This document shows positions 46,595 through 56,337 of a stretch of DNA of 64,000 nt, one piece after another. The stretch covers positions 1 through 64,000 of the forward strand of contig JAGFCA010000055.1 in NCBI GenBank assembly GCA_022394755.1, in the 5' to 3' direction. The position numbers and the translations under genes were made by a program. The DNA is from Candidatus Poribacteria bacterium. Lineage in GTDB: Bacteria > Poribacteria > WGA-4E > WGA-3G. The notes beneath the pieces were generated by a model. The model made no database searches. It was not told the DNA's origin and saw nothing but the letters and a program-made list of their open reading frames with translations. Every line of letters starts with the position of its first letter. Position 1 is the first letter of the stretch.

Positions 46595-47884
46595 TTACGC
46601 AGCTTTTGCAATATTTTTTCGTGTACCTTCAATATCGAAGCATTCATATTGATTCTTATGCATAATTCGGTCTGCAAATTCCATGGCTTGTTTCTCAGTC
46701 ATATAACCATCATCTATTTCTGCTTCAAGAGCGCGTGTAATTTCGTTTCTTGCCTGAATAGCATATGCCATTGCACTTGTAGGCCAACCTGTGTCTCCTC
46801 CAAATGCAAATAACTTATTTGATGGTACAGCATGGATACATCTACGAAGAAAATCACGAGAACTATATGGATCAATACTCCATGCCCAACAAAAATCTAC
46901 CCAAATATTTCGATAATGTTTCGCCAAAGCTACTAATTCATCATTATATGGGTATGAGATATGCATTAATACAAATTTTGCATCTAAGTACCGAGCAAAA
47001 AGTGCACACATATTTCCTGAGGGTATTCGATTCACTGGCATTCGATCGTTCCCAGCATAATAACCTGTATGGATTTTAAATGGAAGATGATGTTGTATAG
47101 TTAATTCTACACCTTTAGCCCAACACCAATCTCCAAGACATAGACGGGTTTCAGCATCTATTTCTTCATTCGTTTTAGTCAACACTTTTTGTAATGCTGC
47201 TGATGCTTCTTCATCAGAACGTTCTATCCAATTCAGTGTTCTATTGTAGGCATGTTGAGATTTTACTGCTATAGCATTAGGACCATGTTTATCAAATAGT
47301 GCATCCATACTTGATTTAAGTGTAGAGAGATCAATGACTTCAATACCTACTTCACCCTGAATACTATTTACATCTATTTGTCCATTACAGAAATTTGCCC
47401 AAGATAAATCATATAAGAAAAAATCTAATCCAGAACTATCGGGATCACAATTCCAACTAAAATCATCTGTTTGGATATGATCAAGATTTGCAATGTCATG
47501 TAAGATTTCATAACGTTTTCCAGGAGTTTGAATTCTTTTAACTTTTTCTTGTGCTTCTGCGAGACTTTTTCCTGTTAGTTCGTCAAGACCATATATATGT
47601 TTGGCTATAAGACTTACTGCTTCACCATAACCTGTAAACTGTGTTGCTTCCCATGCATTCCGTATACCTTCAAATCTGGATTCGATGTCTTTAGATGCAT
47701 CCATAAGGTTACGCATTGCTTCTTGTGTTGCCCCAGCAGTATTTAGATCTGCAGGAACATAATTACCAAATAAGTCTTGAAGTATGTCCGGTCCGTTTTC
47801 TACCCAATCATTTTCACGTCGCATATGTTCATGGGTATCAACTAAAGGTATAGATTGTATATGATGTGCTAAATCAGAAGGCAT
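46595..47884 (-). CDS. Amidohydrolase (TIM-barrel, amidohydrolase-2 type)
   Basis: 429 residues. 'VDTHEHMRRENDW' gives the first metal His-x-His; 'IHTGYYAGNDRMP' and 'MHISYPYNDELVAL' supply later His ligands; 'FAFGGDTGWPTSAM' the catalytic Asp region. It resembles the glucuronate-isomerase/amidohydrolase-2 branch, whose members hydrolyse or decarboxylate aromatic and sugar-derived acids. 'LTIQHHLPFKIHTG' is characteristic. A strong ribosome-binding site (AAGGAG) precedes the ATG. Substrate unknown. Confidence 0.82.
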   Translation of the reverse strand: MPSDLAHHIQSIPLVDTHEHMRRENDWVENGPDILQDLFGNYVPADLNTAGATQEAMRNLMDASKDIESRFEGIRNAWEATQFTGYGEAVSLIAKHIYGLDELTGKSLAEAQEKVKRIQTPGKRYEILHDIANLDHIQTDDFSWNCDPDSSGLDFFLYDLSWANFCNGQIDVNSIQGEVGIEVIDLSTLKSSMDALFDKHGPNAIAVKSQHAYNRTLNWIERSDEEASAALQKVLTKTNEEIDAETRLCLGDWCWAKGVELTIQHHLPFKIHTGYYAGNDRMPVNRIPSGNMCALFARYLDAKFVLMHISYPYNDELVALAKHYRNIWVDFCWAWSIDPYSSRDFLRRCIHAVPSNKLFAFGGDTGWPTSAMAYAIQARNEITRALEAEIDDGYMTEKQAMEFADRIMHKNQYECFDIEGTRKNIAKAA

Positions 47885-48287
47885 TTGAATGCTCCTTGTT
47901 TTCCTATTAATTATTAACTGTAAATAACTAATTACATTTATGAAATATTAACTTTTTTAGACATATCAATAGGTGAATATTGTTCTGATAAATTGGAATG
48001 AAACATAAATTCAACCTTGACAAACGAACTAAGTATAATGTAATATAATACCTATTATCACAATAACACTATTTACATATAGTCTTTAACTATAATTACT
48101 TGTAAAAGTATTTGTGTATAGTTGTTTTATATAAGGCTATAATTTTAGTCTATTATAGATAATATCTTTTGTTGTGTCAAAAGAAACATAGAACATATCA
48201 AAATGAAGAGATGAATATATTTCCACAACCAATAAGTAATAGCTTTAGACATCTTCACAATTTCAAGAAATACACAGGTGCATAAAA
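47885..48287. other. Non-coding region, long leader of the cold-shock fusion gene
   Basis: 403 bases with no gene. It separates the minus-strand amidohydrolase from the plus-strand cold-shock/Hfq-like gene and contains a candidate promoter at 48017-48046. That would leave a 5' untranslated leader of roughly 235 bases, with several short AT stems (for example TACTT/AAGTA near 48099-48112). Long leaders are usual for cold-shock genes. Confidence 0.55.
48017..48046 (+). promoter_or_regulatory. Candidate sigma-70-type promoter
   Basis: TTGACA at 48017-48022 is a perfect -35 box; TAATAT at 48041-48046 lies 18 bases on as a fair -10 box. A perfect TATAAT at 48044-48049 is spaced at 21, less good. 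It points to the cold-shock/Hfq-like gene. Confidence 0.45.
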
Positions 48288-49211
48288 ATGCCTACAGGAC
48301 GGATTAAGTATTACAATCCGGATAAAGGATTTGGATTTATAGCTCAAGATAGCAGTGATGAGGATGTATTCTTGCATAGTTCTGCGATTAAACAGGCGGA
48401 TTATGAAGAACTCAGAGTAGGACAACGTGTTAAGTTTAATATCGTTGAAGGTGATAAAGGCTTAGTGGCAAAAAATGTTGAAGTCTTACTAACACCAACT
48501 GAACGTAGATGGTTACGTCAAGGCAAGACGATTATTCCACGAGGTTATTCTGGTTTTCCATCACAAAATCAAGATCAATTTCTTGAAAGAGATACAGAAT
48601 TTTCAAAAGATATTGATAGAGATAATATTGATAATTACACATATGACAGTCCTGATGACAGTAAAGATAGTAGCGAATCTTCAGGACGTACTTTACCTGG
48701 AAGTGTTGGGAAAGAACAATCTTCCAGACAATTGAGTTTTGGTGATCTTTACATTCTCAAGCAGATAAACTTTGAAACACCAATGTTTTTTTCTTTGTTC
48801 AATAATCAACAATTACCTGCAATTGTATTACAGATGACTCTATCTGGATTGACTGTAAACTCCAATGGTAAGGAAATGGTAATTCCGAAAAAAGACATAA
48901 AATATTGCTATAAGGATGTAGATGCTGAAAATGTCCATACTCTATTAGTATATAATGAAGAAATAAAATCACAGGAACTTAAACCTATTGATTCTACTGA
49001 AGATAGTTATATAATTGATTCAGAACTAATTCGTCAAGCCAGAAAGGATGGTAATTCTATTGAAGTAACTCTTAGAGAGGGTGAAATTTTTCTTGGCACA
49101 GTAGATTGGATTAGTCCTTATGAAATTAAAATGGTTTTGAAAAACGGTTCGAAAGTAGTTGTTTTTCGTCATGCAATTTGTGCTTTTTCACTGGTAACGG
49201 GGGAGATGTAA
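48288..49211 (+). CDS. Cold-shock domain fused to two tandem Sm/Hfq-like domains
   Basis: 307 residues. Residues 1-68 are a complete cold-shock domain with RNP1 'KGFGFIA' and RNP2 'DVFLHSSAI'. Residues 69-147 are a basic then acidic, Ser/Asp-rich flexible linker. Residues ~151-208 ('ILKQINFETPMFFSLFNNQQ' ... 'VIPKKDIKYC') and ~245-301 ('LIRQARKDGNSIEVTLREGE' ... 'VVVFRHAICAF') each have the Hfq layout: short N-terminal helix, then five strands, with the second ending in FRHAIC against YKHAIS of E. coli Hfq. The first Sm unit lacks the His. Likely an RNA-binding chaperone. SD AGGTG precedes the ATG. The next gene starts one base after its stop. Confidence 0.85.
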   Translation: MPTGRIKYYNPDKGFGFIAQDSSDEDVFLHSSAIKQADYEELRVGQRVKFNIVEGDKGLVAKNVEVLLTPTERRWLRQGKTIIPRGYSGFPSQNQDQFLERDTEFSKDIDRDNIDNYTYDSPDDSKDSSESSGRTLPGSVGKEQSSRQLSFGDLYILKQINFETPMFFSLFNNQQLPAIVLQMTLSGLTVNSNGKEMVIPKKDIKYCYKDVDAENVHTLLVYNEEIKSQELKPIDSTEDSYIIDSELIRQARKDGNSIEVTLREGEIFLGTVDWISPYEIKMVLKNGSKVVVFRHAICAFSLVTGEM

Positions 49212-49212
49212 T

Positions 49213-49809
49213 TTGTCTACTGATCCTGCTCAAGTCAAGGAAAAATATCGCCAACTTGTGTCCGAAATAAACCAGGATGTAGATCGTATTCGACAAGAAT
49301 ATGGAAAATATCCTTGCCCAACAGATTGTTTTCAATGTTGTAATAACACATCAACAATCCCAATAAGTGAAGTTGAGGCAAGAGACTTACAGATCGGACT
49401 AAATGCCCTCCCAAGACAAATTAGACTTCATATATATAATAAAGCCTTAAAGACTATAAAGGTTTTGGAGTCTAAAGGATTTACATCCGATTCAATGGTG
49501 AAAGATTCTGGACTCGAAGCCATTGACATTATAAAAGGACAATCTTATGGTCAATGTCCTATGTTAATCGGCGGTGTCTGCTCTGTATATGAACATAGAC
49601 CTGTCATTTGTCGTGTCTGGGGATATCCTATTGACAACGGAAATGAATTGGCTTGTTGTCGGAAGACATTTATAGGACAACGTAGAAATTTCAATCCTGT
49701 AAAATACTCTCTATATTGGCAGAAATGTAAGACTTTGAGCGAGGATCTGGGTGTATTTAAAAAAACACCCGCTTGCTATACAGTCTTAAAGTTAATAGAT
49801 ACAAAGTAG
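49213..49809 (+). CDS. YkgJ-family cysteine-cluster protein
   Basis: 198 residues starting at a TTG that lies one base after the stop of the cold-shock/Hfq-like gene, with GGGGGAG upstream, so translation is probably coupled. The family's Cys pattern is complete: 'CPTDCFQCCNN' (C-x3-C-x2-C-C) in the N-terminal part, then 'CPMLIGGVCSVYEHRPVICR' and a later Cys pair ('LACCRK'). YkgJ-type proteins are thought to bind iron-sulfur or zinc; some related proteins act in oxidative modification or metal handling, but no role is settled. Pairing with an RNA-chaperone-like gene hints at a shared function, which is inference only. Confidence 0.85.
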   Translation: MSTDPAQVKEKYRQLVSEINQDVDRIRQEYGKYPCPTDCFQCCNNTSTIPISEVEARDLQIGLNALPRQIRLHIYNKALKTIKVLESKGFTSDSMVKDSGLEAIDIIKGQSYGQCPMLIGGVCSVYEHRPVICRVWGYPIDNGNELACCRKTFIGQRRNFNPVKYSLYWQKCKTLSEDLGVFKKTPACYTVLKLIDTK

Positions 49810-55040: not shown

Positions 55041-56337
55041 CTATATCAGAAAAGGAGATAATCTACTATTTTCTGTTAATGTATTTTCTATTTCAGATGT
55101 TTTAAATAAGTGTCCATGACTTGCGATCTGAAACGGTATAATTTCTGTATTATCTTCGACCTTACGACAAACAAATAGAGATTCAGGAGGTATTAGATCA
55201 GGCAATACCGATGAATGTGTAGTAGCGATAAATTGTATGTCTTTAAGAATCATCCGAGTTTCCAAGAATTTTGCAATTCTTTGAATTCTGCGTGGATGTA
55301 TACAGTTCTCTGGTTCCTCAATCCCAATCAATGTAGGTGGTTCCTTTCCTCCAACAAGTGTCAATAGTCCAATAATTCGTAGAGTTCCTTCCGATAAAAC
55401 ACGAGCTGAGATATGTATTGTTCCTTCTTGTGAATCTAATTCTACTTATCCAATTTCATTTACATTTACATTGATAGCAGTAATTGAGGAATCATTTTAT
55501 TTAAAGATTTCTCAATAGACTTAAATTAATCAATATTGTGTACTTTTAAATTATTGAGAAAAGCAGACAGATCCTCTCCCATTGGTCCTATATCGTTTGC
55601 AGCTTTAACAGGATTTGGCAAACGCATTTGTTCTCTTGGTTCAAGATAAAAGTTAGCCAATTTGCTAATTCCTCTTACATAGCTGTTAAATGGGGATAAT
55701 GTGGCGGATAATGTGTTCTGGATAGTATACTGAAGTCAAGAAAACGGTCATAAAATAGTGGATGAGATTGTCCTTCCATTCGTAAGTGTAGTCTGTCGCC
55801 TATTCGTTCTAAAAAAGGTTTCCTGTTTTTCTTTGGTTTTCCAAGAGTAGATAGTGCAGCCAAATACTCATCCGAAACACGTAAGATACCTTTTTTTGGA
55901 AACATTTCTATTTCAATTCTGTATCTGAGTTCCGTTTCTCTTATAGGTTGTGTAGGTCTTATTGCAGTCCTATCATTAGATTGTTGATCTTTATCATTCG
56001 TATCTTTAATATCCTGAATTCGTTGGTTAACACTTCTAATGACTGAAAGTGATAGTTCTACATCCACCTCTATAAGAAACGATATTTTCTCTTTTTCTAA
56101 TAAACTTTTAATTCCCTCTACGCCAAAAGTAAAAGATTCTAATGGGTGTCCACGGTATGGAGGTTCAAATACATCCTCAAGTGAATGACAAGTTGCAATT
56201 CGTGAGAGTAATTGTAATGCATCAAGGAAATTACTTTTGCCTGATGCATTAGGTCCTACTAATACAGTAAGGGGTTTAAGCTTTAACTCAAGATCAACAA
56301 GAGATTTATATCCTTTAATTCTTATTCGTTTTAGCAT
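55041..56337 (-). pseudogene. Broken SMC/RecF-type AAA ATPase (OLD-like, AAA_21)
   Basis: An ATPase of about 430 residues interrupted by at least four lesions. The N-terminal part (56337-55675) has Walker A 'GPNASGKSNFLDALQLL'. Near 55690 the frame shifts; the sequence continues in another frame as 'NFYLEPREQMRLPNPVKAA' up to an in-frame TAA at 55526-55528, resumes as 'IEKSLNKMIPQ', shifts again near 55480-55495, and meets a second TAA at 55446-55448 before 'VELDSQEGTIHISARVLSEG'. The final part carries the Walker B 'LIGIEEPEN' and 'IATTHSSVLPDL'. Such ATPases pair with nucleases or TOPRIM partners in phage defence. SD AGAGAG precedes the ATG. Confidence 0.85.

Follow-up and report, generated by a model that had tools for sequence, protein, structure and literature searches.

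Hfq acts as a hexamer of single Sm domains and has been studied as a separate small protein, as have the cold-shock proteins, which are usually free chains of about 70 aa. The locus described here raises the question of whether a single polypeptide could unite the two. In the window (the whole stretch of 64,000 nucleotides analysed, from Candidatus Poribacteria, sponge-type bacteria), a preliminary description made from the sequence alone had placed a 307-aa frame at 48288-49211 of the forward strand and read it as a cold-shock domain (CSD) followed by two Hfq-like units. The coordinates and frame were correct, with an ATG at 48288 and a stop codon at 49209-49211. The GC content of the gene is 34.1% vs 34.7% in its surroundings, and each segment of the protein has a net charge that is zero or negative. 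The gene and its parts are as follows.

48288..49211, forward strand: coding sequence of the CSD-Sm1-Sm2 protein, 307 aa; open frame with full-length orthologs in Poribacteria.
48288..48491, forward strand: cold-shock domain, residues 1-68 (Pfam CSD, PDB CspA, low dN), containing RNP1 (KGFGFI, residues 13-18) and RNP2 (VFLH, residues 27-30).
48492..48557, forward strand: conserved post-CSD motif TPTERRWLRQGKxIIPRGYxGF, residues 69-90 (ortholog alignment).
48558..48737, forward strand: disordered, fast-evolving linker, residues 91-150 (low pLDDT, high dN).
48738..48929, forward strand: Sm1, residues 151-214, regarded as an Hfq-like unit that has diverged and lacks the Hfq His (AlphaFold2, hhalign, single-Sm bridging proteins).
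48930..48998, forward strand: inter-Sm linker with two predicted helices, residues 215-237 (AlphaFold2).
48999..49196, forward strand: Sm2, Hfq-like, residues 238-303 (hhalign, Pfam, PDB).
49164..49175, forward strand: F293-R294-H295-A296, equivalent to Hfq Y55-K56-H57-A58, with the His kept in twin-Sm proteins.

The N-terminal part is a full cold-shock domain, as had been proposed. Pfam CSD matched residues 3-65 (E = 5e-21; 74.8 bits vs a curated cut-off of 27), the PDB match of the domain was CspA (E = 8e-14), and RNP1 and RNP2 were invariant in the 33 family members aligned. This complete domain with both motifs is common to CspA, CspB, CspD and CspE (PF00313); unlike these free chains, however, the poribacterial CSD forms the N-terminal fifth of a 307-aa protein and is usually the only CSD of its genome. 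The motif that follows was nearly invariant in the 33 orthologs, with a dN of 0 in six of eight pairs, and its residues 70-77 are predicted to be helical. Residues 91-150 had a pLDDT of about 22-35, in keeping with the disordered linker of the preliminary description.

CSDs can act as antiterminators, and the best NCBIfam matches were CspD and CspE. The protein might thus be a transcription- or translation-coupled factor, an antiterminator of the CspE kind or a ribosome-associated protein, rather than an sRNA matchmaker; a weak NusA similarity among the PDB profile matches (E about 0.1) would suit such a role. Yet this similarity falls short of significance and overlaps with Sm2, where Hfq fits far better, and we rejected it; the conserved neighbours identified comprise no nus or rho genes. 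We consider a coupled factor quite unlikely.

The C-terminal half was compared with Hfq at several levels. For the window protein alone, Pfam gave matches at residues 248-298 with Hfq_1 (4.7e-5, 23.9 bits) and Hfq (0.008, 16.2 bits), both below the curated cut-off of 27 bits, and the cyanobacterial Hfq-related NCBIfam model (Hfq_rel_Cyano) matched the C-terminal unit at 1e-4. Both Pfam models matched all 33 family members (best values 3.6e-7 for Hfq_1 and 2.5e-5 for Hfq), and other twin-Sm homologs, such as L103 with 41.1 bits, exceeded the cut-off. The family profile retrieved from the PDB a pair of M. jannaschii Hfq-like entries (1.7e-5 and 2.6e-5) and then Caulobacter Hfq (0.005). 'VFRHAI' of Sm2 aligned with 'VFKHAI'; the FRHAIC of the window protein had already been equated with YKHAIS of Hfq, and FRHA does align with YKHA. 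In hhalign, the Sm2 profile matched canonical Hfq with a score of 52.1 (probability 97%, E = 7e-11). Judged by these alignments, Sm2 is homologous to Hfq.

Single-sequence Pfam searches gave no match on Sm1, whose assignment therefore rests on profiles, structure and bridging proteins. AlphaFold2, run on residues 145-307 with an alignment of 33 sequences of the protein's own lineage, produced a model (pLDDT 82.9, pTM 0.80) in which a helix and five strands occur twice with near-identical spacing (strands, in model numbering, at 21-26, 30-39, 43-48, 51-56 and 60-65 in Sm1, and at 113-118, 122-131, 135-140, 145-149 and 153-158 in Sm2); the preceding helix is short in Sm1 and comprises 10 residues in Sm2. 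Foldseek ranked Hfq chain 1kq2_H first among PDB entries (E = 8.9e-4, prob 1.00, TM 0.88 by target). This was the only PDB match at E<=0.001; further Hfq chains came next and accounted for most of the top 50. Because the Foldseek output does not tell which Sm unit each match covers, Sm1 was also tested separately. Its profile aligned in register with both, scoring 18.6 against canonical Hfq (maximum of 60 column shuffles, 15.7) and 20.4 against Sm2 (maximum of 60 shuffles, 16.3), and CSD controls gave no match; as the hhalign probabilities were low (13-26%), these scores are no proof by themselves. Two proteins bridge the units: a single-Sm protein of 93 aa from elsewhere in the phylum (L168; Pfam Hfq_1 2.5e-10) matched the profiles of Sm1, Hfq and Sm2 with 26.6, 25.8 and 20.8 bits, respectively, and a protein with a CSD, one Sm and an intact KHA motif (L102) matched Hfq with 20.6 bits and Sm1 with 15.0 bits. 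The N-terminal helix and five-strand barrel of the Sm/LSm fold are found in both units by AlphaFold2, with Hfq as the best Foldseek match of the model, and for Sm1 the profile comparison and the bridging proteins point to this fold as well. We regard Sm1, on profile and model, as a divergent Hfq-like unit. The two Hfq-shaped units claimed at the outset are in agreement with this. Other candidates were set aside: tandem Tudor domains stood lower in the Foldseek list and were weak or badly superposed, matches in a viral fold library were mostly poor superpositions (best-ranked rmsd above 9), and FlgV, which used to carry an Hfq annotation in Borrelia and for which Poribacteria are named, is an unrelated two-transmembrane protein.

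Does the pair retain the means to bind RNA? The proximal site of Hfq comprises Q8, F42, K56 and H57 (PMC5379935). At these positions, Sm2 has D, Y, R and H, and Sm1 has G, mostly S or Y, K, and no His, the lack of the conserved His in the first unit having been pointed out before. Among 42 twin-Sm proteins of all kinds, the His equivalent to H295 is present in 39 and the Arg equivalent to R294 in 36, the F42 position of Sm2 is Tyr or Phe in most, and K201 of Sm1, at the K56 position, is Lys or Arg in 41. Sm2 of the window protein has Asp in place of Hfq Q8 and retains neither Q41 nor Y25. Several RNA-binding residues of Hfq are replaced in both units, so the protein may differ from Hfq in its RNA specificity. 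The residues would suit a particle whose RNA sites are unequal, as had been guessed in the preliminary description. Sm2 shares with Hfq (PF17209; PF21979, Hfq_1; Hfq_rel_Cyano) the fold, the glycines G29/G34, the aromatic residue at F42 and the basic-His-Ala motif. In contrast to canonical Hfq, with its one Sm in a chain of about 70-110 aa, the window protein carries two units in 307 aa, the first one degenerate, is fused to a CSD, lacks Q8, Q41 and Y25, and remains below the Pfam cut-offs.

Sm folds also serve non-RNA roles, and we considered that Sm1 and Sm2 might pack into a closed pseudo-dimer, or a small oligomer, with only a dimerising or scaffolding role, leaving the RNA work to the CSD of what would be an anchored cold-shock protein. 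Most Hfq motif residues are indeed lost in Sm1, the two-helix linker between the units belongs to the twin module as such, and Sm-like folds such as tandem Tudor do appear further down the Foldseek list. Against such a non-ring binder, Sm2 retains the Hfq motif with its His in twin-Sm proteins that are very distantly related, including ones that have no CSD, and this suggests that Sm2 has an RNA site of its own. We find this explanation rather doubtful.

The preliminary description had asked for the same three-domain order in other genomes. A CSD-Sm-Sm protein was found in about 69 of 85 Poribacteria genomes. Within the window's family, it is present at full length in 56 of 59 genomes (55/58 plus G098), with identities of about 60-83%; the three genomes without it are 81-91% complete. 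Twelve of 14 genomes from three other families of the order have it too (44-53% identity for one-piece matches), as does G073 from another family of the class; G075 has a CSD and one Sm. The same order occurs in both genomes examined of a second small phylum (L151, L152). Substitution rates were estimated by NG86 in eight pairs, and only the ranking of dN was used because dS was often near saturation. The dN amounted to 0.006-0.04 for the CSD, 0.007-0.13 for Sm1 and 0.06-0.16 for Sm2, far below dS in all three, and to 0.13-0.71 for the linker, which in most pairs exceeded every other segment. The CSD, Sm1 and Sm2 are under strong purifying selection, and these low dN values, together with the full-length identity across the family, indicate that the gene is not a chance reading frame. 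Gene order is conserved across families of the order: the gene is followed by a CxxCxxCC gene shortly downstream (most loci) and then by DUF971 and ferredoxin genes on the opposite strand. A plasmid search gave no match. The gene belongs to the core genes of Ca. Poribacteria and is inherited vertically.

We then looked for separate copies of the two classical chaperones. The strongest Hfq match in the 85 Poribacteria had 43.5 bits, vs about 62-108 for the best Hfq in genomes of the comparison phylum that have one. Apart from a 96-aa frame in G082, outside the class of the window's genome, all matches above the cut-off lay in frames of >=158 aa, and the majority of these frames fit the twin-Sm profile. 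A profile search of the 59 family genomes, mostly drafts, found no canonical-size Hfq, and the window's own genome gave no Hfq match at 0.001; the preliminary description had asked whether genomes with the fused protein lack a normal hfq, and none was found in the family genomes that carry it. CSD matches numbered exactly one in 39 of the 59 genomes, none in 3 and more than one in 17, where nearly every additional CSD sat in a frame of at least about 200 aa; just one additional frame, of 80 aa in G012, has the size of a Csp, and it lies at a contig edge. Free Csps are present in other families of the phylum. CsrA was found in 5 of the 85 Poribacteria and in 0 of the 59 genomes of the window's family. 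Absence from draft genomes is not absolute, and five family genomes (G010, G024, G037, G042, G044) are single contigs, each with one CSD and no canonical-size Hfq. Some genomes carry other twin-Sm paralogs, so the fused protein is not the sole Hfq-like protein there.

As no ordinary Hfq or CsrA and mostly no separate Csp were found, the fused protein may stand in for both classical chaperones. The probable explanation, in our view, is that it is a single-chain general RNA chaperone replacing the cold-shock protein and Hfq in Poribacteria. RNA binding is likely, and the CSD arms and an Sm assembly would most likely work on one and the same RNA. The CSD would bind and melt single-stranded RNA via RNP1 and RNP2, as others of its family do. 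Sm1 and Sm2 would be held side by side by the short helical linker, and chains would join through their Sm edges; in the simplest case, three chains would close a six-Sm ring. We have moderate confidence in such a putative ring, the pseudo-hexamer with three CSD arms proposed in the preliminary description. Sites on the ring would alternate between the His-bearing Sm2 and the His-less Sm1, and the flexible acidic linker could allow the CSD arms to hand RNA over to the ring, resulting in remodelling, protection or annealing of the RNA. Matchmaking between sRNA and mRNA might follow. The loss of Q8, Q41 and Y25 in Sm2, the lack of H57 in Sm1, the zero or negative charge of the segments and the indirect nature of the evidence for Sm1 count against a chaperone. 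More tentatively, one may picture a family that has lost free Hfq, CsrA and Csps and whose post-transcriptional control is run by one trimeric fused chaperone of a type not described before, with three flexible cold-shock arms and an asymmetric six-Sm ring in which three sites have the His and three lack it; this is possible, though we would not lean on it.

The best reading of the architecture is that of known folds in a new single-chain arrangement. A tandem (twin) Hfq, with two Hfq Sm domains in one chain, has reportedly been seen in Novosphingobium; it is alike in having two Sm per chain but has no CSD and belongs to another phylum. In the open literature, we found no description of tandem Hfq, CSD-Hfq, GmrSD-Hfq or sacsin-Hfq fusions or of a Poribacteria Hfq, most subscription literature being outside the scope of this search. 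A core gene that fuses Hfq and Csp, with no separate copies seen, offers a natural test of their cooperation on the same RNA, and also of how an Sm ring becomes asymmetric, a step that the eukaryotic Sm/LSm rings took.

The twin-Sm module also occurs outside this architecture. Five poribacterial proteins combine GmrSD_N with the twin-Sm or its Sm2 part and a CSD (L158:3224-5875(-), L159:3237-5930(-), L162:2890-5565(-), L169:129-2948(+), L166:716-4093(+)), the CSD being C-terminal in four of them; they are probably RNA/DNA-sensing defence effectors. CSD and twin-Sm have thus been paired repeatedly. Sacsin-type ATPases carry a C- or N-terminal twin-Sm (L155:536-4258(+), L156:4080-7703(-), L160:506-4279(-), L161:6004-9855(+)), and the two tested resemble Tiamat TmtA (L155: to 1.7e-106). 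One 1338-aa chain contains a UvrD helicase, a GrpE-like part, twin-Sm and S1 (L157:563-4576(+)), another protein joins twin-Sm to an RNase-H-like/PolB exonuclease domain (L163:1876-2961(-)), and in a third, which comes from outside the phylum, twin-Sm stands with a weak match to ParB_N (L150:2230-3840(-)). A second twin-Sm paralog without a CSD (L075, L077, L079, L082, L087, L093) has a disordered N-terminus that opens with a shared short motif resembling VWTPD.

Fusions of twin-Sm to GmrSD with a CSD, to Tiamat/sacsin-type ATPases, to UvrD and to an exonuclease domain raise the possibility that the window protein is itself a sensor of a defence or conflict system, its CSD and twin Sm recognising foreign RNA. 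Yet in a tree of 58 twin-Sm sequences, the CSD-Sm-Sm proteins of the order all fell into one clade (96/99) and the defence-type fusions into a separate one (98/92). The latter (GmrSD-twinSm-CSD, TmtA/sacsin-twinSm) share the module, sometimes with a C-terminal CSD, but have large effector or ATPase domains and a patchy distribution; the window protein gave only a CSD match in a PADLOC defence search, with no effector or ATPase domain, and, unlike typical defence genes, it is near-universal, keeps its gene neighbours and evolves under strong purifying selection. A defence role is very improbable. The CSD label required up to four changes on the tree and is compatible with one origin. The wider module seems to be a nucleic-acid-binding domain not described so far, and it merits a family model of its own.

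Returning to the general chaperone that we favour, the surroundings of its gene contain the following features.

48017..48046, forward strand: likely promoter TTGACA-18-TAATAT with a 5' leader of about 240 nt (consensus scan; candidate).
48276..48280, forward strand: ribosome-binding-site-like AGGTG, CAGGAG in relatives (leader alignment).
49213..49809, forward strand: CxxCxxCC gene (Zn/Fe-chelating, YkgJ-type; weak Pfam CxxCxxCC match, 3e-4).

In the window, the TTGACA box is found some 270 nt ahead of the start, and its position is conserved in most of the family loci aligned. It suggests a long leader as in cspA, and an Rfam scan of this leader gave no known element. The CxxCxxCC gene begins 1 nt after the stop codon and is probably co-transcribed with the CSD-Sm-Sm gene. 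A AAATGCTCGCGCAGGAACGCGAATGG-like stretch, a possible regulatory element, is conserved in the 5' leaders of many relatives (e.g. L032, L053, L058) and degenerate in the window. On the opposite strand, a perfect sigma-70 consensus promoter (TTGACA-17-TATAAT, 48152-48180), strongly conserved in relatives, faces the divergent amidohydrolase-like gene at 46595-47884. Further away, an AAA ATPase (OLD/RecF-like by eye) at 55041-56337 of the reverse strand is split over two frames and is perhaps a broken gene.
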